Of a stretch of DNA of 64,000 nt, positions 11,852 through 63,491 are shown piece by piece. The stretch comes from Nilaparvata lugens (lineage: Eukaryota; Arthropoda; Insecta; Hemiptera; Delphacidae). Every line of letters begins with the position of its first letter. Position 1 is the first letter of the stretch. The notes under the pieces were generated by a model. It had not been told where the DNA came from. It searched no databases and worked only from the letters and a program-made list of their open reading frames with translations. The position numbers were made by a program, and so were the translations under genes. The stretch is from NCBI RefSeq assembly GCF_014356525.2, contig NC_052511.1:29953981-30017980 (forward strand), read 5' to 3'.

Positions 11852-11863
11852 GAGCTCAAGACA

Positions 11864-13086: not shown

Positions 13087-13123
13087 CAGGAAATGGGCTA
13101 CCCCCACCACTCAGCAAGCATAG

Positions 13124-13160: not shown

Positions 13161-13165
13161 TTGCA

Positions 13166-15778: not shown

Positions 15779-16199
15779 CTGGAACAATGCAATACAATAT
15801 TGTATACCTATGGTATGCAGTCTTCAACTCTATATATATATACCTTCATCACTATCAACAGATGTGGGGGGATGAAGGCTGTGAATCAGTATTGGTATCA
15901 ATATCTAGGATTGAGGGTCGGATGTGTGGGTGTGTGTCGGGGATGGAGGTTCATAGATGTTTATTAAATGTTCTAGGGGATGATAGTAGGGAGCTGTATG
16001 GTGGGGAGTGTGAATGGGGTCTAGGATCTACTTCGTGATAGGGGGAAGGTAGGATGGGTGCTCCTGATCATTAGAACCATTGCCGCTCATGAAAACGACA
16101 TACATGCCGTTAGTATGGGTGGTTCTCTAATATTGTATGGGTGGTTATCTCTAGTATGGGAGGGTTGGATTTTACAATGTCCATTCAACAAGAATAGTT

Positions 16200-36354: not shown

Positions 36355-36774
36355 ATATAATATTGATTTTCACACTTAGTTTTCCACACAAAATGGTCTT
36401 TACCATCTAAAGTTTCAACCGTCGGTTGTACAATAAGAGAGTGCTGGACTTCCAAATTAGCAGTTTCATCAACATTATTATTCATTTTTAGTGGACCCCT
36501 ATTTCTACTCAACACCCCCCTATCACTGGATGTTTTCGATGTTGCAGGATGAGAAGATTTCTTCCTTTCCTTACAATTTGATAATTTCGAAGTAGAATGG
36601 CTCAGTGATTTCCATTTCCTTCCTTTTCTTATTAGTCAATGATTTCGTTGTAGAAGGCTCTGGTGTAATGTCTATTCCCATTCTTTTCTCCTCGTTTTGA
36701 ATAGCTCTATCTTCGATATTCAAATCTCCAATATCATTCAATATGAATGAATCGAGCAAATTCTGCCGACTCAA
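36355..36774 (-). pseudogene. Coding-like minus-strand segment of unknown origin
   Basis: Two minus frames that meet near 36575 together read as low-complexity but protein-like sequence rich in Lys, Ser and Glu (KSLTNKKRKEMEITEP, then KTSSDRGVLSRNRGPLK and VETLDGKDHF). It ends at the point where LINE-J coding starts on the other strand, so it may be an older element or host exon into which LINE-J inserted, or LINE-J's own 5' region read backwards. No family recognised. Confidence 0.25.
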
Positions 36775-37566
36775 CGCCGGTCAAGGTAAGAGTGGATAAT
36801 CCTAATGACAATACTTCTGTGAATAGAGATGTGCTGGACCTTGTTACTGTAAAACGTATGTTGAATGCTCTAAAAACTGAAATTCTATCTGGTGTGTTAG
36901 AGGGGCAACGCAAACTGGAGAGTGAATTGAGCAACTTTCGAAAATCCTGCGATAAGAAACTTGATGCATTTTCTGAACTGTTATCCAAACAAGAAGCCAT
37001 CATTACATCACAACGGGGAGAGATCGATGCGTTGAAGAAGGAAAACACAATTTTGACTAAAAAGTGTAATTCTCTTTCGATGCGTATGGACGATAGTGAA
37101 CAATATAGTAGATTGAATACGGTTGAGATATACGGGGTTCCAGAAACCAATGATGAAAACGTGGAGAGTATTGTGAAAAACATTGGGAAAGCTATGGGTT
37201 TGGACTTATCAGATAATTGTATAAATATATGTCATAGGTTGCCTAAGAGAAATAACCGCCCTACATCAGGTATAATATGTAAGTTTGTGAAGAGAACTGA
37301 TACATTCAAGTTTCTTGAAGCACGAAAAGGATTGAAGGAACTTTCCATTCGTCAATTGGGCTTCGATTCGAATTCGCCGATTTACGTGAACCAATCTCTG
37401 ACTGCGTAGGAAATTATTTGGACTGGCTAGAAAACATAAACAGGATGGGTTGGTGAAGCATCTGTGGATAGATAGAGCCTGTCGTGTCAAAGCTAGGAAA
37501 GTGGATGGCGGTGAGGTGTTTGTTCTGAGAGAAGAGAATGACTTATTGCATTTGGTCAATAACTGA
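36747..37566 (+). pseudogene. LINE-J ORF1: coiled coil plus FP25K-like domain, frameshifted
   Basis: RNA-binding ORF1-type protein. From ATG 36747, residues about 30-115 form a Glu/Lys/Leu-rich coiled coil (EGQRKLESELSNFRK, QRGEIDALKKENTI). A domain like the C-terminal half of baculovirus FP25K and many insect LINE ORF1 proteins follows: TVEIYGVPET, NICHRLPKRNN, GIICKFVKRTDTFKFLEARK, PIYVNQSLT. The frame stops at 37409. A shift of one base near there restores a tail (KLFGLARKHKQ, then VFVLREENDLLHLVNN) to a stop at 37564-37566. Confidence 0.75.
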
Positions 37567-38684
37567 TTTACTTAGTACTCTATCGCATTGCATGCATTGA
37601 CTGTCGTTTTTATTTGAACCGGAGTAAATCGAAGTTGAACTGTTTTTGTTTATATTTATTGGTATTCTTCTGCTATTTTTTCTTTTGTTATTGTTAGTTT
37701 TTTATGTTGCAACAATTGATGGCTCTCCACTGTTTGTGAGATGAATGTCAGATTGAGACAGGGTGAATGGGAATTAGAAACGATTGTACGATAGTATTAT
37801 CAATAGCTATGTTAGATAATTAACTTGGGGTTGTTGGGGATGTCAATGTGTGTGGCAGATTGTAAATGATATTTGAAATTGAGATTGAGTATGGGATATT
37901 ATTTATTATGATAATAATGATCTTATATAATGATAAGAGTATGAAAGATGAAGCGTGAGTCGATTAAGTTAGTTGGAAACTTGTAATTATCAAGCCAGCT
38001 TATTACAGTGAATATCTATTGCTTTGACTGCGACTCTGCTGTTTGGCTGTTCGGTATCAATATTGTTGTTATTGATGGATGTGATCTCGGGCTCAGTAAT
38101 GATTTTGACACTATTATTTTGCTTGACTGAACTGAAGGTTCGCTCTCACTTATCTTTGCTCTCTCACTTATCTCTCGATTTGATAGCTGCATACTTCATT
38201 ATATACGGTATTTATAGTTTTCCTTAGATTATATTATTCTATAGTTTTCGCGTACCTACAGCGATATTTTCTTCTCTTTCTCGTAAAAATCATTGATTTT
38301 GAATGACTGTCATCAGTTTGTTTGTTTTTATTTTATTATTTTTTTTATGATATTTTGTATGAATGTGAGTGTGTTGAGCTGCTCGATTGTTGCAATACTA
38401 TGGTATCTGGCACTGTCCTATTGAATAATGAAATTTGTTTATCACTCTGTTTCCACTAAGTCTTATGTTAAGAAGTTAATGTTATATTGCAGTATTCTCA
38501 AAATTGAACAAACATTATATTATCAATAGGAGTATAATATTATGTTGGGCGTGAGCTTGGAAGTTTTTTTTAAGATTTTGTTTAGGAGTTAATAATTTTA
38601 TTCTTATTAGTTTTCTTTTTGGTTGATTGTAATCAGTCACAGACTTTGTTTTTCTCTTTTATTTTCTATTGATTGTGTCTCATT
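37567..38684. other. Spacer between LINE-J ORF1 and ORF2
   Basis: About 1.1 kb of T-rich sequence without supported ORFs. Unusually long for Jockey-type elements, so it may contain an unrecognised insertion or be a long intercistronic region. Confidence 0.4.
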
Positions 38685-39299
38685 ATGAATCAGGAGGTTT
38701 CCGTGTATTATCAAAATGTTCGAGGACTGCGAACAATGGTGGATTCTTTTTATTTATCTATAGTGAATTGTAGTTATGATATTATAATGCTTTCTGAGAC
38801 CTGGTTGCATGAAGGTTTGAGGGATAATGAGCTATTTGGCCAAGAGTACTCTGTATATAGGAAAGACAGACCTGATCGGAGGGGTGGTGGAGTCTTGATA
38901 GCAGTTAACAGAAGACTCAGGTCTGAACTTTGTACAAATTTGTCTTCTTATGACGGTGAGATTATATGGGTCAGAGTGTATTTTGGGGGTGTTGCTTATT
39001 TGTTCAATGTAGTTTATTTCGCTCCACCTGTTACTTCTCTTCATTATGCTTCCTATTTTGACTTTCTGGAAATACACCAGGGAGAAATAACTGGCAATGT
39101 TATGATTGCTGGAGACTTCAATCTTCCGGAGGTTCTTTCACACAAATATGACTTTGCTAATGGTAGTGTTAAGGCTCGTCAGTTGGGTAATTTTATGTCC
39201 TTTTTTGATCTTGATTCTTATAATGATGTTGTCAATATGAATGGTCGTACATTGGACTTAATACTGTCTAGCTATCTAGTCAGTGTGTCTCATGGTGAT
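38685..39299 (+). pseudogene. LINE-J ORF2, APE-like endonuclease part
   Basis: From ATG 38685 (an upstream in-frame TTG is ignored) the chain shows the exonuclease-endonuclease-phosphatase order: VYYQNVRGL, IIMLSETWL with the metal-binding Glu, RRGGGVLIAV, MIAGDFNLP and, near the break, GRTLDLILS. The frame ends because a 300-bp LINE tail is inserted after GGTGAT at 39294-39299. Coding resumes at 39606 with the residues expected next (DDILVEEDVFHPALE). Confidence 0.8.
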
Positions 39300-39599
39300 T
39301 GATTGATTGATTGAGTACTTTATTTATGTAGATTACAATATATACTGGCTTATACACTTATATATAATGGCTTACAATACAGCAAAATTATAGATGAAAT
39401 TACATAATATAGACTAAGAAAATAATTATTGAAAATTGTATATGATATGAAAAAGTAATTTGTAATATAATAACTATAGATAATTATATTGTTATGCATC
39501 TACATAAATTGGCGGAGCTTTGGACATATCAATGTCCATTCTTCGGAAAGAATATTGAAAATATCCTCCCTACTAACTCTCTACCAATGTGATGACCAA
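39300..39599 (-). mobile_element. 5'-truncated LINE 3' end inside LINE-J
   Basis: Flanked by GGTGAT (39294-39299 and 39600-39605). On the minus strand it ends in AATAAAGTACTCAATCAATCAATCA, that is a poly(A)-like signal plus a TCAA tetranucleotide tail, as in several LINE clades. No complete ORF in 300 bp. Removing it restores LINE-J coding across the join. Confidence 0.8.
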
Positions 39600-39605
39600 G
39601 GTGAT

Positions 39606-40953
39606 GACATACTTGTAGAGGAGGATGTATTTCATCCAGCGCTGGAGATAGGTTTCTCTTGTTTTCAGAGCCAATGCAAACTGGAAATGTAGTCAATGAT
39701 GAATATTTTTATGATTATCTACATGCTGATTATCCCAGTCTTTATTGTGATCTAAGGGACGCGAACTGGCAGAATTTATATAACTCAACGAACATAAATG
39801 AGGTTATTGATATTTTTTATAGCATATTTGTATCTGCTATTGATAAATTCGTGCCTAGGAAGAAAGTTAAAAAGAGGGAGAGCCAATACCCTCCTTGGTT
39901 TACAGCTAATATCATTCGTCTGATTAAGAGGGAAAACAGATGTGCTAGAAAGAGAAAGTACTCTCGATTTCATGATGATGAATTTAGAAAGTTGAGGTCA
40001 GATTTGAAGTTGATAATCACGAATGCATATAGTGACTATATCAATAGGTGCCAATTGCAAATGGATGGAAACATAAAAGGTTTCTGGAAATTTGTGAATT
40101 TCAAAAGGACAACCTGTTTCTCTGAAAAGGTAATGAAATGGGGGGATGCCACATATACAGGAATGAATGTACCCAATGAATTTGCTGATTTCTTTTCATC
40201 AGTTTACAGAGATGCTGATTCTGCAGGCATTGGAATTGATGATACTGCTACTGATAATTTGCATTACCCCTCTGTTAGTCTTGAAGATGTACTAAATGCA
40301 ATAAATAAATTGAGTCCATCGGGATCTGGGGGCCCTGATGGAGTACCAGCATTCATTATTAAGGGCTGCTCTAACATACTTGCTGAACCTTTAAAATTCC
40401 TTTTAAACCTCTCCCTTGAATCAAATATTTTTCCTGATAAGTGGAAGGTATCTAGAATTGTTCCAATCTTCAAGTCTGGTAATAGACATCTTGTCAATAA
40501 TTATCGTCCTATTTGTATATTGAACTGTTTTGTCAAAGTATTCGAAATGATTCTCTACAATCACATATTTAGTCATGTTCGGAATAGAATAAGTGACTTT
40601 CAGCATGGATTTGTTCAAGGTAAACCACCACCAACTTGGTTGAATTTACTCAGAGAGTCTCGTCGATTTTAGATGTTGGTGGTAGGGTTGATGTCGTTTA
40701 CACTGACCTGTCAAAGGCATTCAACTCCGTGAATCATTCCATGTTGTTGAAGAAACTATCCCTGTTTGGCTTTAGTATGTCCCTACTCTCCTTTTTCGAG
40801 ACTTACCTTGTTGGGAGAAGGCAGTATGTACAGATGCAGAATTACCGGTCACACTGTTTTGTGATTACTTCTAGGGTTCCTCAGGGATCGAGCTTGGGAC
40901 CATTGCTTTTTCTGTTATTCATTAATGATTTGCCTAATGTCATAAAACACTCT
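39606..40953 (+). pseudogene. LINE-J ORF2, reverse transcriptase N-terminal half
   Basis: Three frames succeed one another: the endonuclease end to about 39690, the linker and fingers 39659-40672, then 40636-40953. Visible blocks: PPWFTANIIRLIKREN, SPSGSGGPDGVPAFIIK, IVPIFKSGNRHLVNNYRPI (motif 1), FQHGFVQG, VYTDLSKAFNSVNH (motif A, catalytic Asp), VPQGSSLGPLLFLLFINDLP (motif B region). Frameshifts near 39655-39690 and 40620-40640. The frame is cut at 40953 by the left LTR; the next residues (SYVLLYADDV) lie at 57193 onward. Confidence 0.85.
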
Positions 40954-47333: not shown

Positions 47334-47366
47334 AAGACTCACTAAATAATAATTTAATAATAATTT

Positions 47367-47394
47367 CTCTGGATGTTGGACGACACATCCAGAG
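47367..47394 (-). other. 3'-terminal stem-loop of LINE-H
   Basis: CTCTGGATGT and ACATCCAGAG form a perfect 10-bp stem around an 8-nt loop. On the minus strand it is followed directly by the AAATTATTATTAAATTATTATT tail. A hairpin at this spot is a plausible recognition site for the element's reverse transcriptase, as known for 3' ends of several LINEs. Confidence 0.6.
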
Positions 47395-47671
47395 GAGTTT
47401 ATTCATAAATTCATACATTACATATTTTTTTCATATATTTTCAATAATATAACAATATTCAGTGTTTACAAAAATGATACCTCACTATATAATATATGTG
47501 TCGAGGTTATCATCAAATTAATACTAATTTATGCTACAACAGATAATACAAAAATTCCAAAAATCTAAAACTATATCTATTACCCTAAGCATCACCTAGT
47601 ACAAAGATACTAAACCGAGGTACTATTTTCTACATATAAATTACCTTATTTAAAAAGAATACTGCTTAAAT

Positions 47672-50600
47672 CTAAATCCTACTTACTATTAGTTCCTCAC
47701 TACTTTGTATCCCAATACTGAATAACCAATGTCTAATTTTTCTTTTGAACCTATTGAAATTTTCCTCTCCTTTGATTTCTAATGGTATTCTATTAGATAT
47801 TTTAGGCCCTAAATATCCTAGTGATCTTTGCCCAAACGCTGTATTCATTCTTGGTACTTCTTGATTGTAACGTTCTCTTATTCTAGTATTATGGCTATGA
47901 TTTATGATATGGTTCCTATTTTGATATTTTTCATATACCCTAATAACAATAATATATACAATTGCCTAACGCTGAGTACTCTATTTTCTATAAATAATTC
48001 TACAGTTGAAAACTGGATTTCCCTGTTTCCCATTATTTTCAAAATGCGTTTTTGAGTTTTAAATAATGGATCTATAAAACTGAAGTTAGCTGCACCCCAA
48101 ACTAACAGACCGTACCTTAAAAGAGATTCAACTAATGTTAAGTATACAGTTTTTAACATTTCTTTGTCTATGATACGCCTTAATTGATAGAATTTGTATA
48201 TAAGCTTCCTTATTTTGGCAGTTGTATATGTTATGTGTTTGTTCCATTTCAATGAATCATCTACTATTATTCCTAAATACTTTATATTGTCTGAGCGTTC
48301 TATTAGTGGGCAATTACAATTATTGTTACAATTTCTATCACAATTATGGAGCCTCATTGTTGTCATGTGTGGTTTTGTGCTATTTGTTAAAGAAAAAGTT
48401 AAAAATTCTGTTTTTTCTGAATTCAATGACAATAAGTTATTTCTTAACCAACTAGTGATTTTTGTGAGTTCTATCTCTGCTGTTTGGAACACTTCTTCCC
48501 AGTTTTTTCCTTGAAAAAGGAGTGCTGTATCGTCAGCAAAGGCTATAACTCTACCTTGAATTTGAATGGAGCACAACTCATTTGCAAAGATCGAATACAA
48601 AATTGGTCCTAAAACTGTTCCTTGAGGTATTCCAAACTTCATGGAGCCCTCTGCACTCATATGGTTCTCAACCTTTGTTTTTTGCTGTCGATTGCTGAGG
48701 TAGGATCTGAACCATTCAAGTGGCACTCCTCTTATACCTATTGCCTCAAGCTTTTTTATTAATAAGTCATGGGAAACAGAGTCGAAGGCCTTTGCTAAAT
48801 CTAAAAATACTGCTAGACATTTATTCTTTTCCTCTAAATTGCTAGTTACAAATTTTGATAATTCTAGTACAGCTAATTCTGTACTTATACCTTTGCGGAA
48901 GCCAAATTGGTTAGGAGAAAGAATATTATTAATTTCTAAAAAGCTTATTAATCTTGATTTAACTAGTTTTTCTAAAATTTTTGATACATTGCTAATCAGT
49001 GAAATAGGTCTATAATTACTAATAATTAGTTTATCGCCTGCTTTATGTATAGGTCTGACACAGATTTGCTTCATTGCTCTTGGAAAAGTACCATATAACA
49101 AGCTCAGATTAAAAATATGAGTTAAAGGCTTAGAAATTAAATCTTTTATTCCTTTCAAGGTCCTGTTATCTAATCCATCTAGGCCTGGTGCACTATTGAT
49201 GTGTAAAGAATCAATTGTGTTTATTATTTCCTTTTCATCTATGGGGAAAAGAAACATATTACTCTGTACATGCAATTCTGGTACATTATCTGCTATAATT
49301 TCGTTAATATTTTTATTCAGACTCTCAGATATTTTGTTAGCCATACTCTCTCCAATATTAACAAAGAAATTATTCACATGACTCAATAGTTCTCTAGGAT
49401 TATCTTTCAGTGTGACTATGTCACCATTAATTTTCAAAGCATTCAGTTGTATATCCTTTTTCTGATCTGAATCTGTAGCATCCTTGATTATTTTCCATGT
49501 CTTTCTTACATCATTGTTTGCTTCATTTAGTTGCATCTTGAAATAATTTTCTTTTGTAGTTTGGATGAGTGACGTCAGTGTATTTCTGTATCTTCGGTAG
49601 TAGTTAGCGAGTTCTCCGTTCTCTGGGTCCAGTTTCCTTCTTCTATTTAGAGAATCCCTTGTTCTTATAGCTGAGATAAGTCCTCGTGTTATCCACGGTT
49701 TTATGCTCTTGATCCTCTTCTTTTGTCTGTAATGATGTGTATTGCTCTCCATATGTTTTTGTAGAATTTCTAGGAACTTTTCGTAAGCTGAGTCTGTGTT
49801 ATTTGACTCAAAAACCTCCGTCCATTGTTCCACTCGCAGTCCTCTCCTCAAGCCGTTCAAGTTGACAGATTTACAGTTAGATGAGAGTTGACAGTTAGTT
49901 GAGCTCTGTTCATCCCCATTTGTTCTGTCTAACTGATGTTCTTCCAGTCCAAGAATTGTACTGAAGTGGTCTGTGATACTCGAGTGATACACGATTGGAT
50001 GGATTTTACTTTTACAGTTGGTCAACATATGATCCAAACAAGAAGACGTTCCCGCTGTTACTCTGGTAGCCTTTTTAATGCAGTTCTTCAAACCGTGTTC
50101 ACTCAATAAGTCGTGATAATCATCAAGTTGATAATGCTGATGTGGCTGTAGCGTATTAATGTTGAAGTCTCCTGCGCAAATAATAAGTTGACCTCTCAGT
50201 CTACCAAGCACTGTTTCAAAGTCCTCTAAAAACTCTGTTATGCTGGCGTAGGAAGGTGATCTGTACACTGCTAATATATTATATCTCTCCTTTGATGTTT
50301 GAAGTCGTAGATGAAGAACGTTGGCCTGTCTGATATTTAGTTCTACCGATTGTACATTGAGATTTTCCTTTGCATATACAATTACTCCATCATTTTGAGT
50401 ACGATTATTCAAAGAGTGAAAAATATTGTAGTCCTTCAGTTGCTTCTGTGTATAATCTCTTTTGATCCAGCATTCTGTTAGTATTATTATATCGAAATCA
50501 TGGGACATATCCTGTAGTTGAATCATCAGGTCATCGAAGTTCTTCCTAATACTTCTGATATTGAGAGAAAATACAGTTATATTAGAGTGTTGAAGAGCAA

Positions 50601-50700
50601 CGTGGAGTTGTTGTTTATCCTCAATCACACTGTCCTCTATCTCATCCACGGAATCAAGTTCATTTGCCACATCCAGCACGTTATTATTACTCATCATCAT
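47672..50700 (-). CDS. LINE-H ORF3: APE endonuclease plus reverse transcriptase
   Basis: Nicks target DNA and reverse transcribes the element RNA. Endonuclease blocks: VFSLNIRSIRKN, IIILTECWI, LIICAGDFNIN (about residue 177), SSITDHFSTI (about 238). Reverse transcriptase blocks: IRPIHKAGDKLIISNYRPISL, FLDLAKAFDSVSHD (motif A, about 635), IPQGTVLGPILYS, AFADDTALLF (catalytic FADD, about 720), then SEKTEFLTF. A Cys-rich insert (CDRNCNNNCNCP) lies before IKYLGI. The long frame stops at 47902 (932 aa). A one-base shift near 47950-47985 connects to a further conserved tail (YGYLGPKISNRIPLEIKG-like) that stops at 47672-47674, so this copy is slightly broken. Clade: Jockey/CR1-like. Confidence 0.9.
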
Positions 50701-52624
50701 ACTTATTCATACGCACCCCTCCATGCTTGTTCTCCTCTATTTTCCTCTGCCATCTCATTATATATTTATCATCAAAGCTTAATGTGTTTTTTATAAGCAA
50801 TGATATGAGATCATTCTCCGCTGTTGTTAGATAGTTGAAACTATGAGTGTGCCTACTGAGTGCTACAATCACATGACTTTCACTGTTATAGATCTCTAGA
50901 TCCTTTGAATTTGTCCTCACTAGAATAACATTTCTATAAGTAAGACCTTGTGCTTCGTGTATCGTGTGAATTTTTATTGTTTTATCAATCCTGTCACCTA
51001 GTAACTCTTGAATAATTTTTTTCTCATTCTGCGTGTATGTTAATACAAGTGTTTCTGGATCAAGCTGTGGAAGACCGCCGTTAAAGATGGTCTTCCTAAT
51101 TGAGCGAAGAGTTCCACTAGTTGTTTCAATTTTACCATAGAATTTGGATAGTGCGCAGCATACATCGATCGGACATCTTCTAGTTAAAGTCACTTTCCGT
51201 GTGGGCTCACAAAAAACTGAAGGATGAGACCATCTAACTTTCAGTCCACTCCTTTCGATGTAAGGAATCTGTTTAGAATCACCAAGTAGGAAAACTTCGG
51301 AGCATCCTGATAATTTCGCAATGAAACCAATGTAGCCAGCATGCATCAGTACAGCCTCATCTATAAAGACACGATGATATTTCTTGCCCACTCCATTTAT
51401 AATGAAAGATGAAACGTTTCTGTAATCTGATCTTATTATCTTTCTACAGTAATCCTTACCGTACTTATGAATGACAGCCTCTCTGATGTCTTTGATTCCT
51501 GCTCTTGTTTGACTGAGAACTAAATCTATTCCTGGTTTATGCTGGTTCAGTATTTCAAACGTCTTTCCACACCCTGGCACACCATCTATCCACGTAATAT
51601 TAGGAAGACTTGAAGCAGAAATGTCAATTGATGATATTTTCTGATACAGCTCACCGTTTAACATGAGTTGTGTATCTCTACTAACAAGAATGTATTTTTC
51701 TTTTGTTAAGAATCTTTTATTACTCTCGTTGAATTCCACGTAGGTTCCTTCGTTATCCAAGCAGAAGCCCATTCTATAACTTTTTCTAGTTGGCCATAGA
51801 AATGTTCTTAGATTATTATCATAAATATTCATCTCTTTACGCTTTATCTCTATTAGGTACGAATAAGAGCTCAATAAGTTTTTTTTTGTAATGTTAGTCA
51901 GAATTTCATAGTAAATAATAGAATTTATCTGATCATGTTGACTCAGAAGATTTCTGAGCTCCAGCATACTATTTATAAATTCATGTTTGGGTGGTTTTTC
52001 AGGTAAGTATCCCGTTGGACATGGTTTCTCATTGTTTTTCTCTTCTGGAATATTTAAAAATGTAAGATTATTTATACCCTTGTAGTAAAACACATATTTA
52101 ATATGTTTTGTTGCCAAGACAGTACTTAAGAGATCAATACAAGATACATCAGCCATGGTTCCAAAAAAATCAATTCCAACTGTCAGAGCTTGTTTATCTG
52201 AAGCCCATTCATCGATCATAGATAGTAATATTTCTAGATTGGAAAGCAAGTTACTATTATCTGTCAATAAAAACAAATTGAGTATTTTCAATGTCTCGTC
52301 GAATTTCACCGACGCATCAATTTGCTTTGTTTGTGAAAATATAGTAGTTAGACTATTGAAGTAATCAATGCTCATACATTTCCTATTTACTATGGTAGCA
52401 ATGCCCTTGGAAATATTTACTTTTCCGTTTTTTACGCTGGCGAAGGAAATATTCAGGTCAGTGTAACCTCCAAAATTAAATACGAGTGATGTCCTACTTT
52501 TTGATCTTTGTTGAACTCTACATGTATAATTCAAATTACCTAAAATTTCATTAATATCCATCACAATATTTCCAGTCTGATTTATTATTTTTTGAGAACA
52601 ATATATATTTTTAAACAATCCCAT
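50687..52624 (-). CDS. LINE-H ORF2: virus-type superfamily 1 RNA helicase
   Basis: All SF1 motifs of the alphavirus-like viral helicase family are present. Numbered from an upstream in-frame TTG at 52639: I GVPGCGKT (353-360), Ia LVLSQTRAG (373-381), II FIDEAV (425-430), III LLGDSKQIPYI (451-461), IV TLTRRCP (484-490), V THTIHEAQG-type block IHTIHEAQGLTYRNV (557-571) and VI VALSRHTHS (592-600). QIPYI, RRCP and VALSRHT closely recall helicases of plant virga-like and insect nege-like viruses. The first 340 residues match nothing I know. I place the start at ATG 52624, which overlaps the ORF1 stop by 14 nt; the stop overlaps the ORF3 ATG by 14 nt. The gene is open throughout with no missing catalytic residue, so it was probably functional when inserted. 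Likely role: unwinding element RNA or RNA-DNA duplexes (inference). Confidence 0.93.
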   Translation of the reverse strand: MGLFKNIYCSQKIINQTGNIVMDINEILGNLNYTCRVQQRSKSRTSLVFNFGGYTDLNISFASVKNGKVNISKGIATIVNRKCMSIDYFNSLTTIFSQTKQIDASVKFDETLKILNLFLLTDNSNLLSNLEILLSMIDEWASDKQALTVGIDFFGTMADVSCIDLLSTVLATKHIKYVFYYKGINNLTFLNIPEEKNNEKPCPTGYLPEKPPKHEFINSMLELRNLLSQHDQINSIIYYEILTNITKKNLLSSYSYLIEIKRKEMNIYDNNLRTFLWPTRKSYRMGFCLDNEGTYVEFNESNKRFLTKEKYILVSRDTQLMLNGELYQKISSIDISASSLPNITWIDGVPGCGKTFEILNQHKPGIDLVLSQTRAGIKDIREAVIHKYGKDYCRKIIRSDYRNVSSFIINGVGKKYHRVFIDEAVLMHAGYIGFIAKLSGCSEVFLLGDSKQIPYIERSGLKVRWSHPSVFCEPTRKVTLTRRCPIDVCCALSKFYGKIETTSGTLRSIRKTIFNGGLPQLDPETLVLTYTQNEKKIIQELLGDRIDKTIKIHTIHEAQGLTYRNVILVRTNSKDLEIYNSESHVIVALSRHTHSFNYLTTAENDLISLLIKNTLSFDDKYIMRWQRKIEENKHGGVRMNKYDDE

Positions 52625-53795
52625 AATTAGTCTTTTCAATCAATTGCTGCAATGATTTCTGGTGGCTAGGACATTGTGGATCGTGAACTTTATGATTTGA
52701 TGGCTTTTTGTTCTTCTTACAATTGCTACATATTGCTTCCTTGGCGGTATTTGGACAATCTTTAGTACTATGATCTTCAGCACAGTGACCGCAGACTTCA
52801 CTTTCTTTTTTGCAATACTTTGAAACGTGACCAAAGCACTGGCACTTGAAGCACCGTTGAACCGAAATAAAGTCATTTAACCTGCAAGAAGTCATGTCGA
52901 CAAAGACTCGTTTCCTATTTATTAGAATTCTTCTTATCTCGGGCTCACATTCAATGATCCAATGAACTACTTCCTTGTTCTTTGGTCCAACCTTGTAGAG
53001 AGGCTTACATCCGTTTAAAAATGATTCTTTTCCTAGTTCAGAGATAGCAAAGTTTTTGTTGAAAATACTCTCGGCTAGTTCCTCTTTGCTTAAATCACTA
53101 GGGACATCGTAAATTATTAAACGTGGCTTCCTATTCTGTGGTTCAACTATTTTCAAATTTTTCATATTTCCAGTCTTCAACGCCTCATTTTCAATGATTT
53201 TCTTCTTGTCCTCTTCCGAATTCAGAAAAATCATGAGGCCACCTCCTCTAACATTCACGGTCTTTTTAACTCTAATATCGTCTTTGTTTTTGATATTCTC
53301 CCGCAATACATTTTTAATAATTCTACTGTTTTCCACTTCGTTCAGGACTGGTTTGACTGGCTGCAACATAACTATATGCTCCTGTGGTTGTAGTTTCCTA
53401 ACATTGTTCCCTGCAACTTTATTGTCCTTCAATTTTCCTGGCAACTGCACCATATCAGCATAGCTTAACATAGGCCTACTTTCACTTTGTTTCATAGTGT
53501 CTACCGCCTTATTTATATTTTTAAGGGACTCCTGAATACCCTTATTAGTGTTTCCGAGCCCTGCCGCTAGCTGTGAAATTGTCACTGACCTTGTTTCTAG
53601 TTTGACGATTGTTTCCGACAATTCATTAGTTATTGAAATAAATCTGTCGAAATCAGCCCTCAGAACTTTTCTTTTTTCAAATTCCGCTTCCGCCCATAGA
53701 TTAAGTTCGTGCTTTATCTGCTTTAAAAGTTCATAATCCTTTGAAAATTCATTGCTGATTACCTTTGATGTAGATTGCTCTGCTGGTTTCTCCAT
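52611..53795 (-). CDS. LINE-H ORF1: Gag-like zinc-knuckle protein
   Basis: Binds element RNA. 394 residues from ATG 53795, intact. The N-terminal third is helical. A central RRM-like region includes VNVRGGGLMIFLNSEEDKKK and RLIIYDVPSDLSKEE, then VHWIIECEPEIRRIL. C-terminal zinc knuckles lie at about residues 315-375 (RCFKCQCFGHVSKYC, then VCGHCAEDHSTKDC, then a CSNCKKNKK...H...C block). This is the layout of Gag-like ORF1 proteins in Jockey/R1-type LINEs. The stop TAA (52613-52611) lies downstream of the helicase ATG in another frame. Confidence 0.9.
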   Translation of the reverse strand: MEKPAEQSTSKVISNEFSKDYELLKQIKHELNLWAEAEFEKRKVLRADFDRFISITNELSETIVKLETRSVTISQLAAGLGNTNKGIQESLKNINKAVDTMKQSESRPMLSYADMVQLPGKLKDNKVAGNNVRKLQPQEHIVMLQPVKPVLNEVENSRIIKNVLRENIKNKDDIRVKKTVNVRGGGLMIFLNSEEDKKKIIENEALKTGNMKNLKIVEPQNRKPRLIIYDVPSDLSKEELAESIFNKNFAISELGKESFLNGCKPLYKVGPKNKEVVHWIIECEPEIRRILINRKRVFVDMTSCRLNDFISVQRCFKCQCFGHVSKYCKKESEVCGHCAEDHSTKDCPNTAKEAICSNCKKNKKPSNHKVHDPQCPSHQKSLQQLIEKTNYGIV

Positions 53796-54242
53796 TGTAG
53801 GGGACTCCTGGACCTGTCCTGAAGATGATGATTGCTCCTGCTCTTCTCCCTAGAGAAATCTAGAAATACTTCTAGATTTCGGTTTACGTTATTCTACTGA
53901 CGAGCTCCATAACTCTCGAATGAACCAGACCGTTTACTAGATACAAAAGAAATCTTAGCTCACACCATCTTCGGTGCCTTTCGCTAAAATTATACAATTC
54001 CACCGTACAAATTTGCAAGGTTAGTCATAGCTAAACTCCTTGATTTGTTACATGGACAGCTTTCGGGCAGTGCTCCATTCTCTCTGGACACGGACCTACA
54101 CTTTCGCCGATTACCTAAATTCAACAACAACACACATAGGCAGGACATCCCCGTGTCCTCCTCTAAATCTTGAGTCTCAACTAAACAAAAAAATTCCCCA
54201 CAGCCTACAGGAAACGTCACCAACACAACGGATCTTTACACT
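53796..54242 (-). promoter_or_regulatory. LINE-H 5' UTR
   Basis: About 447 bp between the candidate target duplication and the ORF1 start, beginning AGTGTAAAGATCCGTTG on the minus strand. It presumably holds an internal promoter. A short inverted repeat TCTAGAAATACTTCTAGA lies at about 53859-53876. Confidence 0.5.
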
Positions 54243-55212: not shown

Positions 55213-57192
55213 TGTGCCTGACCTTTTTGAAGATGATAAAAGAGATAATTTTGAATAAAATTTAGAATTTAGAAATAGGCAGACACATCTAGAAAATACC
55301 TGAGTCTATACCTAATTCATGCAGGTGAACGGGCTAGAGTCAAGAAAACTTCAATTAATCTTGCCATGCCTGATTTAATAGGTTTCTACTATAGAATAAC
55401 ACAACAATTTGAAATAATAGAAAAATACAAACAGCTTCAATAAACATTGTCAACTAAAATCGAACAACAGAAACAACAATAAATTTCATGTAACTTTGTT
55501 GACATTCTTCATCTGATTTGGGGGCGCATTACTATCCTTCGTTTAGATAGCAATACGTCACAAAACCAAACAATATCCGTTATAAAATAACAAATTAATT
55601 TCAACATGAAATTACTCAAGAAAGAAAAGCCCGTTGAACCCAAATTTCGTCGATAGTAACCCATATAACCCATTTCATAATAATTTTGAATCCCCACTTT
55701 TGATTGACATTCTCGAATGAACCTTTGTTTCACTACACTGCACTTTCATTGGTCTGTACGTTGCTTTATCGTCGGGGTTACAGTACCTTGTTTTTGGCGG
55801 TGAACTTTTACCGGTTGAATTTGGCTTGACGGCGACGTCCTCTTACGTCCCTAGACCTGTCGTCTGAACGGGTGTCTTGAAGTGGTGTTAAATAAAATTG
55901 CGGAACCAAAGTGGTGGTAGTACATGAAGTTGGTTTGGGGACACACATGAACCGCTGTAAATAAATGTATTACAGCATCAATTTCTAACTCTTCCTACAA
56001 TTCATCAAAAGCTAAAACAGAAGTTATCTATTGATTACAATTAATTGAATTCTCTCATTCTATTTGAATCCTCATTTTATATAGATTTTTATCTTTAAAC
56101 TACTGATTCTCTGTATCAGAATTAATGAATTTTTCTCCACAAATAATTCAAAAATTCTGTTATAATTTAATAAATTAGCGTTCAGTTAAAAGCCTTAACG
56201 CCATGAGAAAACACAGTCAGAAAAATATAAAATTGAGTCTTAAACTCAATATGAACATAATCTTAAAAATGTCATTCCAATTTAAAGGCTATCTTCCTGA
56301 CTTTCAGCAATACTCTACGATAATATATCTCCAGAAACAATAACTCAAATGTAACGTAACTGAAAACTTTCTATACTTCTTTAGAAAAAAAAATTATAAT
56401 TATCTTCCATCACTAATAAAATCAAAAGGATTATTCTCAATCAATATTATTAACATGAAAGATAACAGGCTTTGTTAATACAATACTCTTATGGAAGTTT
56501 CAATCAATTAAATTCCCTAAATTATATTTTAACCTTATTTTACGTACCTTAGCGGTTATTTGAAGAAACAATTATTCGTACATGATGAAGAAACACAATT
56601 AAACTTTTCAGGACATGGCACCACTAGAAAATTTAAACTTTAATAAAAATAAAACTAGCTCCTACATTAACTAATGATATAAACTTGTAAACCTGCCCAA
56701 AAAGGGGGAAACATACTGACTACATCTTTACTCTCGTAGTGCTCCTAGCAAAGTGTCCTCCGAAACGTAATCTGGTCTCTCGGCTGGGGAATCCCCCCAC
56801 TACTGTATTTAGAAACAGGTCTCCTATTGGGCGAAGGGAATTAATTTGACCAATCATCGCGTGGCTTCTAGAGCCTTTGGACCAAATAGTAACTGCAAAA
56901 TTGGTAGTTTGTTATAATTTCAATGCTTGCTGTTTTCCAACTTATCGCACTCTATGTTGCGACAGGAAGGCTAAGTTTTAGAGATAATTCCATAATCTAC
57001 ATTCCTCGACGACTCAGAGCCACAGTTTTTAAATATCTATCATGGAAAACTCGAAGTCATGGTCGTACATAATAGAGAGAGAAAATAATTTATTTCGCTA
57101 ACTCACTTACAATAATGGCTCTAGTCTATTGCTTATTAAATGTACTATTATAACTTGGGAAAAGGCCTGAATTGAAAATAGTGCTTGGCACA
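55213..57192 (-). repeat. LTR, right copy (5' LTR of the minus-strand element)
   Basis: About 1,980 bp, the direct-repeat partner of 40954-42924 with scattered substitutions and small indels (for example CAATAAATTTCATG against CAATTTCATG). Same TGTGCC...GGCACA ends. Confidence 0.88.
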
Positions 57193-57672
57193 CTCTTATG
57201 TTCTATTATATGCTGATGATGTGAAGCTGTTCAGGAGAATAAGTGATATTGTTGATTGTGAGCTCTTGCAGAGTGATGTGGATGGTCTGTGTGGGTGGTG
57301 CGTGGATAACGGATTGGATGTGAATGTGGGAAAATGCAGTGTCATGAGGATTACCCGTCAGAGGAACATTACATTGAACAACGCTCTGTATCATATTAAT
57401 GGCATAATTATCAAAGAAGTAGAAAATTTCAAAGACTTGGGAGTTGTTTTCGATCACAAGCTCAATTTCTCTCTGCATGTTGAAAGGATTGTGAATAGGG
57501 CATATCAGCAGCTTGGTGTCATCATCAGAACATGCTCACATTTCAACAGCATACAGACTCTTTGCTATCTCTTCAACACACTTATTCGTAGCATTCTGAA
57601 GTATGGTTGTGTGGTTTGGAACCCATACCAGAATTCACTGATACATCCTTTGGAGTGTGTTCAAAACAGATT
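57193..57672 (+). pseudogene. LINE-J ORF2, reverse transcriptase motif C to thumb
   Basis: Continues the reading frame cut at 40953: SYVLLYADDVKLFRR with the YADD box, LDVNVGKCSVMRITR, FKDLGVVFDHKLNF, SILKYGCVVWNPYQ and ECVQNR. It ends in the CAGATT target of the mini-Polinton (57667-57672); the next coding residues are at 63492. Confidence 0.85.
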
Positions 57673-57683
57673 AGTAGTATAAA

Positions 57684-57723
57684 AAGGAGGACTCTGGCAC
57701 ACAAGTGTGCCGGAGTCCTCCTT
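57684..57723. repeat. Near-terminal 40-nt palindrome (element 2)
   Basis: AAGGAGGACTCTGGCACAC and its near-perfect complement (one mismatch in the arms) around the centre, 11 nt inside the left terminus. At the right end only one arm remains (63438-63456), followed by a different 34-bp sequence up to the terminus. Confidence 0.85.
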
Positions 57724-57976
57724 CACCTCAAGGTCACCCAAGTTGACCAAACCTAACCTCAAGGTCATGAAGTTGGCCAAACCTAGCATCAAAGTCACCA
57801 AAGAAAAATAAAATTAAAACAAGAAATTTAAAAAAAAATTAAAAAAAAAAACTGTGTTCTACAGTGCAGTGCAGTTTTTAGTGAATAGCAAAGTAAGTAC
57901 AATCTATATTGTTTATTATTATTGTTGGTTATTATTTTAAAAGATCCATTTTGATGAATATTTTGTGTGGGGGACT

Positions 57977-58207
57977 TCAAGTAAGATGTCTCCTCATCAT
58001 TATCCAGCATACAAATTCACACCAATATTTTTGGGATGAACAATCATCAAAGATCAATTCAATCTTGACATCCTCATTTAGCCAATTATGGACTTTATCC
58101 AAATTCACAATAGCTACTTCACTATCATTGAGACTGTAGATAGTATCCAAAGGTACTCGTTGGCTATCGCCAAACAGAACATAACCTTTAAAGTATGACA
58201 TTGTCAA
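57977..58207 (-). CDS. TIR ORF, left copy, 76 aa
   Basis: Encodes a 76-residue protein starting MTMSYFKG, with VPLDTIYSL and VAIVNLDKV.NW.NEDVKIELIFDD. Related to the central block of the Polinton 1 gene at 13166-14047 but much shorter. The right TIR has an almost identical copy. Unknown function; it may be a truncated remnant. Confidence 0.5.
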   Translation of the reverse strand: MTMSYFKGYVLFGDSQRVPLDTIYSLNDSEVAIVNLDKVHNWLNEDVKIELIFDDCSSQKYWCEFVCWIMMRRHLT

Positions 58208-58303
58208 CAGTTAGCAATTGATGTTCAAGAGACAAACGCCTCCACTCATATATAGTCTATAATGATGGTGGTGGGGATAAAAAGTGAATGATAAAACAGT
58301 AAA

Positions 58304-58450
58304 TCAAATCAAATGTTTATTTATTGACATGAAAAGGTTACACCAAAAATATCCATCTTCCAGCATTGTCTTCATAATCCAATCATGGGTTGAGTTCACA
58401 ATATTGTAGAGCTCCATCAATCCAGTGGGGAATGCAATTGGTCTGGGAGA
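58304..58450 (-). pseudogene. 3' remnant of conserved Polinton ORF, left arm
   Basis: Encodes GLMELYNIVNSTHDWIMKTM and MSINKHLI before a stop, resembling the end of the Polinton 1 gene at 11864-12792 (KIVIALHGWINKTLLEDR). The stop is followed by AATAAATAAA, as in that gene. Confidence 0.5.
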
Positions 58451-58454
58451 TGAC

Positions 58455-58622
58455 TCATTTGCCGGGCCGGCTCCTTGTCTCGCCGCGACTGCCGGTCGCC
58501 CCACCGCCACCAATTGCCCCACCGCCACCAGTCGTCCAACTGCTGCCGCCGGTCACCCCACCATCGGTTACCATCCCGCCGCCAACAGTCGTCCTGCTGC
58601 GGCTGGCAATCATCCCACCGGC
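58455..58622. repeat. GC-rich minisatellite, left arm
   Basis: Repeats built from CCGCC(A/G)...GTCGTCC(A/C)(A/C)C and CCCCACCGCCACCA units. Strikingly GC-rich against the AT-rich surroundings. Mirrored at about 62377-62544. Confidence 0.75.
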
Positions 58623-58660
58623 TGAGGTCAGGATGGCTTCAATTTGGCAGTGGCTCTTCA

Positions 58661-59055
58661 TATAGGTGAGAGATTGCCTTGCTGTGCTTTCAACAAGGGA
58701 TGTTTTGGCAACCCTACTCCACATCCCCCTGTCACGTGACTCTGACTCGGGATGGTCACGCGGGACCTGTCACTCTGCATGGTAATGGAGACCTCTATCA
58801 CACCAGATTAATGTGTCCTTGGTGGACCTGCTGGTTCAGGATGTCCATGGGAGGCTCTGGATCAGTATGGCCGTGCTGCTCTGGATCAGGGTGGCATTGA
58901 AGATGGATATTTCCAGCGACTCCCACTTCCCCTCCTCCATGTTGTGTTTGGACATTTAGCATGGGCATTCTCAATGACCCTAGCCCCTCCTGGCATATGG
59001 ACCATGCTCACCAGTGTTCAGCATGTCTGTGGCGGGACGGCAGGGTCATCCACTC
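58661..59055. other. TIR sequence without gene (left arm)
   Basis: Related to Polinton 1 sequence at about 14128-14200 (GGTGAGA.ATT...TGCT.TGCTTTCAA...CCCTGTCA). The part 58745-59055 has no clear counterpart in the right arm, so it may be an insertion or a deletion difference. Confidence 0.4.
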
Positions 59056-59059
59056 AGTG

Positions 59060-59232
59060 GTCAGTCAGTCACTTCAATTACTGATCAGTCACTGTTCAGT
59101 CACTGTTCAGTCACTGTTTAACTGTTCAGTCACTGTTCAGTAACTGTTCAGTCACTGTTCAGTCACTGTTTAACTGTTCAGTCACTGTTCAGTAACTGTT
59201 CAGTCACTGTTCAGTCACTGTTCAGTCAGTGG
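59060..59232. repeat. CACTGTTCAGT minisatellite, left arm
   Basis: About fifteen tandem units of the 11-bp CACTGTTCAGT with occasional variants (TAACTGTTCAG, TTTAACTGTTCAG). The complementary array is in the right arm. Confidence 0.9.
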
Positions 59233-59235
59233 CAC

Positions 59236-59589
59236 TCAGAATGTACTTATAGCTAAACTATATCTAAGGAGATGGTAGGTTATAAGTAAACAGTTTGGAA
59301 TACAATTAGCTCTTTATTGATCAATTCAACATCCATTTCATTGAAAAGTTTACTACAAGCAGATATATCTCTGTTCCAAAATCAAAGTTGTTTATCATAT
59401 TGAGTGTGCAGAAAAGTGATGTATCCATGATGTTTCTCCTTGGCCCATGTCAAGCAGGTGATGTCCCAGGTAGTAGACTCCTCTTCCCACACCAGTCCTT
59501 GGCAAGTCCTCTATGTTGATGTCTGATAGTCTTTGGATGATATTCAGTGATACCTCTAGAACACTGTTTCAGATAGAGACAATACCCTG
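59236..59589. other. Inner non-coding segment of mini-Polinton
   Basis: No ORF or repeat recognised between the left TIR and the first gene. Confidence 0.4.
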
Positions 59590-59901
59590 TCATTGTTGTT
59601 GAATCACCTCACAACCTCTTCCCTTCAGGTAATTGATGCTCCTTCGAGTCAAAAGTATAGGTGTCGTAGTATTTCTCACCACTTCATCATCCTCCTCCTC
59701 CTCTTTCTCTTCCTCCTCCTCCTCTTCCTCTTCCTCCTCCTTATCCTCTTCCTCTTCCACCTCTACCTCATTGTTCTCCTCCATATCAGTTCCCTCTTCC
59801 TCATCTTCTACATGATCCTCATCCTTCATCAGATCAAATGGGGAGATTGATGGTAAATTTGTCTCACCATAGTCACCCCACTTCGAGAATAGGAGTACCA
59901 T
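59590..59901 (-). CDS. Small acidic Polinton ORF, 103 aa
   Basis: Homologue of the 71-aa ORF of Polinton 1: same MVLLF start (ATG at 59901, chosen for that reason) and similar C-terminus (LLTRRSINYLKGRGCEV). The middle is a long Glu-rich run from GAG/GAA triplets, in place of the proline-rich segment of the relative. Open throughout. Function unknown. Confidence 0.6.
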   Translation of the reverse strand: MVLLFSKWGDYGETNLPSISPFDLMKDEDHVEDEEEGTDMEENNEVEVEEEEDKEEEEEEEEEEEKEEEEDDEVVRNTTTPILLTRRSINYLKGRGCEVIQQQ

Positions 59902-60060
59902 CTTCTCTAACGTTCCAGATACACAGTTGATCCACAAAATGTCTGTTCTCCACAGATGATTCCAACACAATGAATCTAATCTGCTATGTATCCAATATAA
60001 TTATATCCATAATTGTACAGCATTATGATTTTGATTGTACCTCAATATATTACCTAGTGT

Positions 60061-61877
60061 CTAAGGTGTTGCTGTTCTCTGCTTTCTCCAGTAAAGACCT
60101 CTACCGACCATTGATCTCTGCTGTCTCAAGTAAAGACCTGTACCAACCTTTGGTTTCTGATGTCTCAAGTGAAGACCTCCTTTGATTGATTTTTTCTTTG
60201 ATGGTTGAATCTTTTGTTTCTTCTCCTTCTCAGCCACCCTGCTGACTTCCTTCAGTGATCTTTTCATACCTCCCCCAAATTTTGCCTTAGTCTTCATGAT
60301 GTTGGTGACTGCTAGTGCTGCAGCTTTTTCCAACACCCCTGCATCTTCAGATCTCACTCTGTCCCAGGCTCTCTCTGCCAAGATGCTGTCTGCTACTGCT
60401 CTGCTTGCTGTATCACCACTCTTGGAATAGGCAATATCATGCTCCTTGCAAGCCTGATCAAGTTTGTTGATTCCTGGATCACCTTGTGCTAATTGCTTCT
60501 GAAGTTTTGTTCCTGGTCCACAGTATTGATAGCCAGGGATATGAAGTTTAACTGGTAGAATGTCGATTGCCGTAATAACTATTGTACCAGCAGCACCCTT
60601 GATAGCTGACAGAACACCTCTTCCTCTATAGATCTTCTGACTTTTCTCCTTAGAAAAATCATGCCTTGAAGCAATGGATCCTCTCCCAGTCACTTGTCTC
60701 TCAGAATGTCTTTGACTGCCATCTCTGCTATCATCCAAAAGGTGTTTGATTGTATTCTTATACTTGGCTTTGTTGTAGTTAACAATCTCACCTCTTGGAT
60801 CATTGTTCTGTCTGTGCACACTGGTCCAGTTCAATATTTCCCCATAGGCTTATCTGTCAGCAGATTCAACTAATGCACAATTCGGATTCTTCTTGAAAAT
60901 CAACTCACAAAGTCCCTATGTAGCTGTGAAGGTCTTTTCTTCCTGATCTACAGGGTCAGTTAGCACAATACATCAATTTCATCACCATTCTCTCCAAAAG
61001 TTAAATACTTATTTCCCAGGTAGTAAGCTTTGTCTCTCACTCTTGGCCCAAAAGTGTCATCAAAATCGTCATTGTCCTTGCTCAATGATCCTCTAATGTA
61101 ATCAGCTACTTGTTTTCCAGCTAGATCAGTTTGATCAAGGATATTCTGAACTGTTGTACTGTGACTTTCATTCAATAATTGTTCAACATTCTTATCATCA
61201 TCCTGTCCATCTCCAGACAGCTCCTCATCACTGCTATCATCATATCCTCTACTCATATTATACTCCTCACCCTCATCCTCTTCAAATGCCTGCTTTCCTG
61301 CTTTCCATAGTTGTCGTACAACTCCTGAGGTGCCTGCTATTGGACGTGAAACTTCTCCAGTTCCATATGATTCAAATGTTAGTAACTCTTCATCAATGCT
61401 GGAGAGTTGCAGCTTATGTTTTGCTTTACTTGCACCAGTAAGTCCACGCCTTGTATATGTGGCACGTTTAACAAATGGTGTTGTTGGTGGAGTAGGATAT
61501 ATGTGGTGTGTTGATGCTGCTGAGAAAGGACAATGTTCTGATGATAAAAACTCTGGCTTGGATTGTCTCTGCCTACCCTTCACATGCCTGGAGTGCATTT
61601 TTATTCCAGGCTTCAGATACCTGGGACGCTTCTTGGATGCTCTTGATGGAGGTAGTTGTGGTTGTTGAACTGGCATCTGTTGGAGAGTTTTGACTAGGTT
61701 GGCTAGTGGCTCAGCTAGAGGTTTGAAGTGTTCCACATGTTTCTCTTCTGCAATCCGTCTACCCAGCATGATTTCCTTATGCCTCCTTTTGATTTCATGC
61801 TTCAACCTAGCAATCTACAATATGGTAGGAGCAACCTTCTCCAATGTCGGCTTATGGTTCCTTTGTTTGATATACAT
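60061..61877 (-). pseudogene. Fused PY-like and PLA2-domain remnants
   Basis: From ATG 61877 the PY-like gene begins, meets a TAG at 61817-61815, then stays open to 60960 with HEIKRRHKEIMLGRR, an acidic middle and YYLGNKYLTFGENG. After further stops (60960-60840, with GLCELIFKKN still readable) coding resumes and runs directly into a PLA2 segment (60834-60061) with GRGVLSAIKG, YCGPGTKL and LDQACKEHDIAYS, including the His-Asp pair. A repeated Gly-Leu-Tyr-Leu-Arg-Gln-type motif and a basic tail end the protein. The gene between them in Polinton 1 (7928-8377) is deleted. Confidence 0.8.
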
Positions 61878-61898
61878 ACTGGTCAGTGTTCATCAGTA

Positions 61899-61934
61899 TA
61901 CTGAGGTCTGAGAGTTTGAGCTCAGCTATTTATA
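61899..61934 (-). promoter_or_regulatory. Core promoter of the mini-Polinton PY-like gene
   Basis: On the minus strand TATAAATAG (T at 61934) and TCAGTATA (A at 61902) are 32 nt apart. Polinton 1 has the same TCAGTATA before its PY-like gene (A at 6565), there with a weak TATA. Confidence 0.6.
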
Positions 61935-61967
61935 CATTTTGGACCCATCCCAAGTGCCGAGTGCCAC

Positions 61968-62226
61968 TGACTAAACAGTGACTGAACAGTTCCTGAACAG
62001 TGGCTGAACAGTGACTGAAAAGTGACTGAACAGTTACTGAACAGTGACTGAACAGTTAAACAGTTACTGAACAGTGACTGAACAGTGACTGAACAGTGAC
62101 TGAGCAGTTACTGAACAGTGACTGAACAGTGGCTGAACAGTGACTCAGTGACTGAACAGTGAATGAACAGTGACTGAACAGTGACTGAACAGTGACTGGA
62201 CAGTGACTGAACAGTTACTGAACAGT
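61968..62226. repeat. CAGTGACTGAA minisatellite, right arm
   Basis: About twenty units of ACTGAACAGTG, longer than the left-arm array, so the arms have diverged by unit number. Confidence 0.9.
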
Positions 62227-62376
62227 GAGCCAGAGTCACGTGACAGGGGGATGTGGAGTGTGGTTGCCGAAACAGCCCTTGTTAAAAGCACAGCAAGGCA
62301 ATCACTCACCTATATTATGAAGAGCCACTGCCAAATTAAAGCCGTCCTGACCTCAGTCGGCGGGATGATTGCCAGC

Positions 62377-62544
62377 TGCAGCGGGACGACTGTTGGCGGT
62401 GGGATGGTCACTGACAGTGGGGCGACCGGCGGCAGCGGTCGGACGACTGGCGGTGGCGGGGCAATCGGCGGCGGCAGTCGGACGACTGGCGGCGGTGGGG
62501 CTACCGGCGGCCGCGGTGAGACAAGGAGCCGGCCCAGCAAATGA
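62377..62544. repeat. GC-rich minisatellite, right arm
   Basis: Inverted partner of 58455-58622: GGCGG(T/C)GGGG, GTCGGACGACTGGCGG units. Confidence 0.75.
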
Positions 62545-62548
62545 GTCA

Positions 62549-62695
62549 TCTCCCAGACCAATTGCAGTCCCCACTGGATTGATGGAGCTCCACAATATTG
62601 TGAGCTCAACCCATGATTGGATCATGAAGACAATGCTGGAAGATAGATATTTTTGTCGTAACCTTTTCATGTCAATAAATAAACATTTGATTTGA
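62549..62695 (+). pseudogene. 3' remnant of conserved Polinton ORF, right arm
   Basis: Near-identical inverted copy of 58304-58450, ending MSINKHLI. Confidence 0.5.
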
Positions 62696-62791
62696 TTTAC
62701 TGTTTTATCATTCACTTTTTACCCCCACCACCATCATTATAGACTATATATGAGTGGAGACGTTTGTCTCTTGAACATCAATCGCTAACTG

Positions 62792-63022
62792 TTGACAATG
62801 TCATACTTTAAAGGTTTTGTTCTGTTTGGTGATAGCCAACGAGTACCTTTGGATACTATCTACAGTCTCAAGTATAGTGAAGTAGCTATTGTAAATTTGG
62901 ATAAAGTCTATAATTGGCGAAATGAGGATGTCAAGATTGAATTGATCTTTGATGATCGTTCATCCCAAAAGTATTGGTGTGAATTTGTATGCTGGATAAT
63001 GATGAGGAGACATCTTACTTAA
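62792..63022 (+). CDS. TIR ORF, right copy, 76 aa
   Basis: 76 residues, near-identical to the left-arm ORF at 57977-58207 with a few substitutions and no stop in either copy. Retention of an open frame in both arms could mean selection or recent homogenisation of the arms. Confidence 0.5.
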   Translation: MTMSYFKGFVLFGDSQRVPLDTIYSLKYSEVAIVNLDKVYNWRNEDVKIELIFDDRSSQKYWCEFVCWIMMRRHLT

Positions 63023-63210
63023 AGTCCCCCACACAAAATATTCATCAAAATGGGTCTTTTAAAATTCTAAATAATATTTATTCTGTCTCTCTCTCTCCCT
63101 CTCTCTCTCAACCTGAATGATCATCATGATGTGTGAGGAGACATCTTAAAGTCCCCCACACAAAGTATTCATCAAAATGGATCTTTTAAAATAATAACCT
63201 ACAATAATAA
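63010..63210. repeat. Subterminal tandem repeats, right arm
   Basis: Two units with GAGGAGACATCTTA..TAAAGTCCCCCACACAAA, separated by a CT-rich stretch (63080-63111). Same unit as at 16200-16565. Confidence 0.8.
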
Positions 63211-63390
63211 TAAACAATATAGATTGTACTTACTTTGCTATTCACTAAAAACTGCACTGCACTGTAGCACACCGTTTTTTTTAATTTTTTTTTTTTTTTT
63301 TTTTAATTTTTTTTTCTTTGGTGACTTTGATGCTAGGTTTGGCCAACTTCATGACATTGAGGTTAATTTTGGTCAACTTGGGTGACCTTG

Positions 63391-63415
63391 AGGTTAGGTT
63401 AGGTTAGGTTAGGTT
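63391..63415 (+). repeat. TTAGG telomere-like run
   Basis: Four consecutive TTAGG units plus GTT. Shorter runs occur at 16871-16884 and 16894-16907 in the Polinton 1 TIR. TTAGG is the insect telomere repeat. Confidence 0.7.
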
Positions 63416-63491
63416 GACTTGGGTGACCTTGAGGTGAAGGAGGACTCTGGCACACAAGTTTGGGGGGGATAAATCTGCGTTTTATACTACG

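Follow-up and report, generated by a model that had tools for sequence, protein, structure and literature searches.

A virus-type helicase as a separate cistron between ORF1 and the endonuclease-reverse transcriptase in LINEs of Nilaparvata lugens

Virus-derived helicases are known from insect LINEs, in which they have been termed accessory in print. In TRAS elements, a helicase is carried at the C-terminus (Lazareva et al., 2015; PMC4686597), and a helicase of the TRAS-type LINEs complemented the transport of a suppressor-deficient plant virus, a result that its authors, in the available parts of that paper, regarded as not unequivocal and that was later termed weak as a suppressor-like effect (Morozov et al., 2017; PMC5563155). 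The later paper reported 'dozens of sequences' of helicase-bearing, Jockey-type LINEs from Nilaparvata lugens, in which the helicase has an ORF of its own, called 'ORF1', lying close to or overlapping the endonuclease-reverse transcriptase (EN-RT) ORF, with a 2-nt overlap in the example given. A similar arrangement was described there in Homalodisca, and Gerris and Ceuthophilus were also listed as having ORF1s with a helicase; on the basis of a helicase tree, it was proposed that these helicases arose independently of TRAS. The available parts of that paper describe no gag-like ORF upstream of the helicase (PMC5563155). For the LINE SART1, whose two cistrons have an overlapping stop and start, termination-reinitiation between the cistrons has been reported (PMC5972666).

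Here we describe a LINE copy in a stretch of 64,000 nt of the N. lugens genome (the window), in which a complete helicase frame lies between a zinc-knuckle ORF1 and an EN-RT ORF3 (Table 1). Like the LINEs published in 2017, it comes from the same insect, has a separate helicase ORF just upstream of or overlapping the EN-RT and carries the full motif set, and the two probably belong to the same group. They differ in that the helicase occupies the first ORF in the published description, whereas here a distinct ORF1 precedes it (39/46 loci), and this three-cistron order would correct the view that places the helicase in ORF1. TRAS elements, too, are insect LINEs that carry a complete SF1 helicase of virga type; there, however, it is fused C-terminally to ORF2 in the R1 clade (PMC4686597), whereas here it has a separate frame upstream of the EN-RT. 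The overlapping stops and starts resemble those of SART1, which has two cistrons rather than three; coupling here would follow by analogy, the overlaps being what is known of it. The sequence-only reading of this locus had presented the helicase as a separate cistron of a three-ORF element, which was borne out, but a separate helicase ORF beside the EN-RT was not new, having been published in 2017 (PMC5563155). No three-ORF LINE with a middle helicase appeared in the titles and abstracts of the literature searched (figures, most subscription papers and Repbase lay outside this scope), and neither an upstream gag-like ORF1, and hence three cistrons, nor a conserved pre-core region was found there. 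The helicase-bearing LINE is thus a known kind, to which we add the upstream ORF1, the common overlaps and the occurrence in several groups.

Table 1. Features of the helicase-bearing LINE copy, in window coordinates.
Feature	Position	Strand	Basis or remark
LINE copy, 5'-truncated, 3' end ~47345	47345..53850	-	copy-boundary comparison
ORF1 as left in the window copy, 394 aa	52611..53795	-	three CCHC knuckles
ORF1 stop / helicase start overlap, 14 nt	52611..52624	-	equal length in family 2
Helicase ORF	50687..52624	-	ATG at 52624, 645 aa + stop; 50687-52639 if begun at in-frame TTG
Region preceding the core	51605..52555	-	residues 29-345 from TTG
Helicase core, Viral_helicase1	50825..51589	-	residues 351-605 numbered from TTG
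Helicase stop / ORF3 start overlap, 8 nt ATGAGTAA	50687..50694	-	from third ORF3 ATG
ORF3, endonuclease + reverse transcriptase (FADD), 932 aa, ends prematurely	47902..50700	-	Pfam domains
Open stretch in another frame with the rest of the ORF3 C-terminus	47672..47965	-	blastp homology
3' end structure: stem-loop 47367-47394 (10-bp stem), then two 11-nt A/T repeats	47345..47394	-	fold and copy boundaries

Helicase residues are numbered here from the in-frame upstream TTG unless stated otherwise; numbering from the ATG is lower by 5. The translated ORF contains all six motif strings, I to VI, and the Pfam Viral_helicase1 profile covers residues 351-605 (E=5.5e-39; 134.8 bits against a cut-off of 21), in line with the complete virus-type SF1 helicase that had been read at 50687..52624. 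The Walker A lysine, the DE of motif II and the arginine of motif VI were invariant across the 19 aligned helicase proteins (19/19). In both sequence and predicted fold, the best matches were tobamovirus or virga-like (ToMV) rather than cellular, an assignment made by best matches and not by a tree. The likeness to the ToMV helicase (PDB 3vkw) extends over the core sequence and the predicted fold and includes the part directly before the core, residues 209-345 falling inside the structural match. Unlike the helicase of ToMV and virga-like viruses, that of the LINE is not part of a replicase polyprotein and has an extra N-terminal part of ~185 residues (24-208). As judged from its sequence and modelled fold, the helicase is of the viral SF1 type and nearer to viral than to cellular SF1 helicases. 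The sequence-only reading had proposed an alphavirus-like affinity and had set a cellular one beforehand as grounds for rejecting it; profile search, best matches and predicted fold led to ToMV and virga-like proteins, and a cellular affinity was not seen. Remoter helicases (P0016, P0017 and P0018) have 32-35% identity and a different, longer N-terminus.

The twelve Cys/His columns of the three ORF1 knuckles were invariant in 9/9 aligned proteins; the Pfam zf-CCHC_4 profile matched only at E=0.61, in three of the nine. The predicted fold of ORF1, of low confidence, comprises a helical N-terminus and two RRM-like folds. Its intact form is 430 aa in 4/5 intact frames of family 1 (the family of the window copy, see below), and it matches the N. 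lugens protein P0140 at 100% by search, with one residue differing in the alignment. ORF3 combines an APE-type endonuclease and an RT in one ORF, and Pfam gave no RNase H match in it. The domains given for the best 120 of 308 ORF3 relatives were PF00078, PF14529 and PF03372, with PF28493 in two, and PF00075, which we take to be RNase H, was absent from them. The closest solved RT structures were those of R2 and L1, which does not decide the LINE clade.

Searching the N. lugens genome itself with the helicase gave 70 rows for the best 68 of 1297 candidates. At least 42 rows belonged to family 1, at 73-100% identity (two being second pieces of copies already counted), and at least 28 to a second family with 50-52% identity to the window helicase, 26 of them without a stop. 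The set of loci compared numbered 46, with 30 from family 1 (the window copy included as L001) and 16 from family 2. ORF1, helicase and RT followed one another on one strand in 39 of the 46, the window's included; the exceptions were six loci without ORF1 and one without RT in the stretch examined. The helicase between ORF1 and RT is thus not a one-off; a lack of other copies in this order would, according to the sequence-only reading, have refuted it. Under a strict start match, the helicase frame was intact in 5/30 family-1 loci, the window's among them, and in 13/16 of family 2. Copies of family 2 are near-identical and ~6.8 kb long: among the 13 loci with both end motifs, ten measure 6774-6821 nt, two are longer and one is shorter. 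Their 5' end is common to 14/15 orientable copies, and the tails listed are mostly TTTGAA-type repeats of varying length, with some short or absent. At one family-2 locus (L044:3671-5764), the ORF1 start is in frame with the helicase in a 697-aa open frame, apparently via an internal deletion, forming a natural ORF1-helicase fusion.

A helicase profile search of the genome was considered for the best 150 of 807 candidates, every one above the cut-off, and these were paired with 102 ORF1 places out of 1818 candidates. ORF1 lay no more than 2.5 kb upstream at at least 57 of the 150 helicase places, and among these best 150 of 807 none had an ORF1 on the wrong side or strand. For the gaps listed (46 and two of the 57 places), the distance from ORF1 to the core was 1025-1064 nt in the 46, and 940 and 1782 nt in the two. 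A group with a 649-aa helicase frame had ORF1 upstream in at least nine of 15 cases, each at 1049 nt, and one with a 681-aa frame in both of two; for a single 777-aa frame, there was no ORF1 upstream among the matches listed. Frame length and the identity of ORF1 to P0145 are the sole grounds for distinguishing the 649- and 681-aa groups; that identity is 39% and 42%, respectively, as against 44% and 46-47% in most copies of families 1 and 2. They appear to be two further groups with an upstream ORF1, known so far through helicase and ORF1.

The 14-nt overlap of ORF1 with the helicase occurs in both families (TATGGGATTGTTTAA and TATGGAAGTGCTTAA), and the family-1 sequence, with at most two changes, was found at 25 loci. 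The overlap of the helicase with ORF3 is 14 nt if measured from the first ORF3 ATG and 8 nt if measured from the third, the start codon that is common to family 2; the 8-nt ATGAGTAA is identical in the six family-2 loci listed. In protein P0001, the upstream extension added by the gene caller matches the C-terminus of ORF1 in another frame at 19/21 positions, which none of 20,000 shuffles equalled. With CCHC knuckles on one side, Pfam EN and RT domains on the other and overlaps of 14 nt and of 14 or 8 nt at the junctions, the flanking ORFs that had been read on the same strand, with overlapping ends, were confirmed. By analogy with SART1, these overlaps are compatible with termination-reinitiation.

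The 3' end of the window copy was placed at ~47345 because 39 other places in the genome match the 400-base 3' query only to position 344-363 (best 40 of 1347 candidates). The 5' break at ~53850 falls in ORF1, at the point where homology with 14 other copies stops. An earlier ORF1 ATG and a common upstream sequence are present in 14/15 family-1 loci covering this region and are missing from the window copy. ORF3 stops at 47902 though its C-terminal homology continues to 47672 in another frame; this remainder gave 37 blastp rows against the 120 ORF3 relatives, and the eight rows listed show 29-43% identity over C-termini. The copy boundaries place the stem-loop inside the element, and the 151-nt 3' fold has z=-3.24, with 1/200 shuffles equally good. 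Hallmarks of a LINE are present: EN and RT in one ORF, a repetitive tail at the 3' end and copies truncated at the 5' end. Neither the window copy nor the measured family-2 loci showed a convincing target-site duplication. Because its ORF1 is truncated and its ORF3 frameshifted, this recent, damaged copy is probably not autonomous.

We compared one copy pair per protein between family 1 and family 2, with pS saturated (0.79). The helicase had a between-family pN of 0.33 as a whole, 0.29 in its core and 0.39 over residues 19-203 (from the ATG), as compared with 0.31 for ORF1 and 0.27 for ORF3. These values are similar, and the constraint on the helicase is thus about as strong as that on the standard LINE proteins, but weaker on its N-terminal part. 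To judge from these substitutions, the helicase is under purifying selection between the families, and the comparison of selection across copies that the sequence-only reading had suggested thus places the constraint on the helicase close to that on ORF1 and RT. Within-family pN/pS (0.66 and 0.58) rests on few changes and does not show recent selection.

We hypothesize, with a modest degree of confidence, that this is a three-cistron LINE whose middle, virus-type helicase is likely made by termination-reinitiation and is predicted to unwind element RNA or RNA-DNA hybrids in reverse transcription. An RNA virus of the virga/nege-like type would have been the source from which the helicase was captured, in agreement with the proposal made in the 2017 paper. 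Ribosomes finishing ORF1 would restart at the helicase ATG and those finishing the helicase at the ORF3 ATG, as in SART1, and the protein might then join the ORF1/RT particle, where its ATP-driven activity would clear structure from the template RNA or help to strip RNA from the cDNA. Such a role in unwinding or RNA removal fits, without being proven, because ORF3 has no RNase H by Pfam. Many LINEs that lack RNase H are mobile despite having no helicase, and the helicase therefore need not act in reverse transcription.

The main alternative, which we consider possible if somewhat unlikely, is that the helicase is a silencing suppressor: through the binding or unwinding of double-stranded or small RNA it would shield the element from siRNA or piRNA, with no direct part in reverse transcription. 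This was proposed in both earlier papers (Lazareva et al., 2015, PMC4686597; Morozov et al., 2017, PMC5563155), whose available parts also cite tobamovirus helicase domains with such activity, and the suppressor-like effect of a TRAS-type helicase in plants favours it (PMC4686597), as does the fact that a separate cistron could work in trans. However, the published test was indirect, made in plants and of another lineage, and the catalytic core is about as constrained between families as the RT (pN 0.29 and 0.27), more than simple RNA binding seems to require. A stronger form of the reverse-transcription reading, in which a viral replicase helicase has been turned into an obligatory third protein, made from one RNA by two successive stop-restarts, and drives TPRT unwinding in place of RNase H, strikes us as rather unlikely.

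It is improbable that the helicase is kept for antiviral defence of the host, for instance by contributing to the synthesis of viral cDNA on which RNA interference draws, rather than for the element. The available parts of two papers suggest this (Morozov et al., 2019, PMC6338049; PMC5563155), but the gene is carried by mobile elements that were copied recently, and its conservation in two families, together with that of ORF1 and RT, is what a function for the element predicts. We regard it as very improbable that the helicase is a cellular enzyme, Upf1-, Pif1- or UvrD-like, that merely resembles viral ones: below the cut-off, the ORF matches AAA_19, UvrD_C_2 and UvrD_C, and the PF01443 (Viral_helicase1) profile also has matches in 9/14 cellular control genomes, so that membership of this family is by itself not proof of viral identity. 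A functionless viral cDNA that landed by chance in a single LINE copy has next to no probability, given the at least 42 and 28 rows of the two families, the gene order in 39/46 loci and the purifying selection between families, and as a one-off event it is refuted by the number of copies. The role of the helicase is testable, since two abundant families of a pest insect, and apparently two further groups, carry it as a separate cistron under selection between ORF1 and RT, with overlaps in common and near-identical intact copies.

The window holds further features. Positions 1-14047, with a piece at 15164-15787, are Polinton/adintovirus-like and encode a double-jelly-roll capsid-like domain (9.1e-47), a phospholipase A2-like domain and an A32-type ATPase; by eye, 1259-3640 reads as a DNA polymerase and the piece at 15164-15787 resembles the ORF at 26-1225. 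Fragments of a second, different kind of LINE lie at 36747-40672 (+), with an ORF1-like frame that has a weak Baculo_FP match and with EN and RT pieces in separate frames, and at 57185-57682 a further LINE is represented by a short RT-like piece that scores below the Pfam cut-off. A tandem array at 24806-25277 has 2.8 copies of a 171-nt unit. A large imperfect palindrome spans 57698-63462, with several inverted arms, of which the longest measures 612 nt (93%), and its inner part contains another phospholipase A2-like ORF at 60064-60834 (-).
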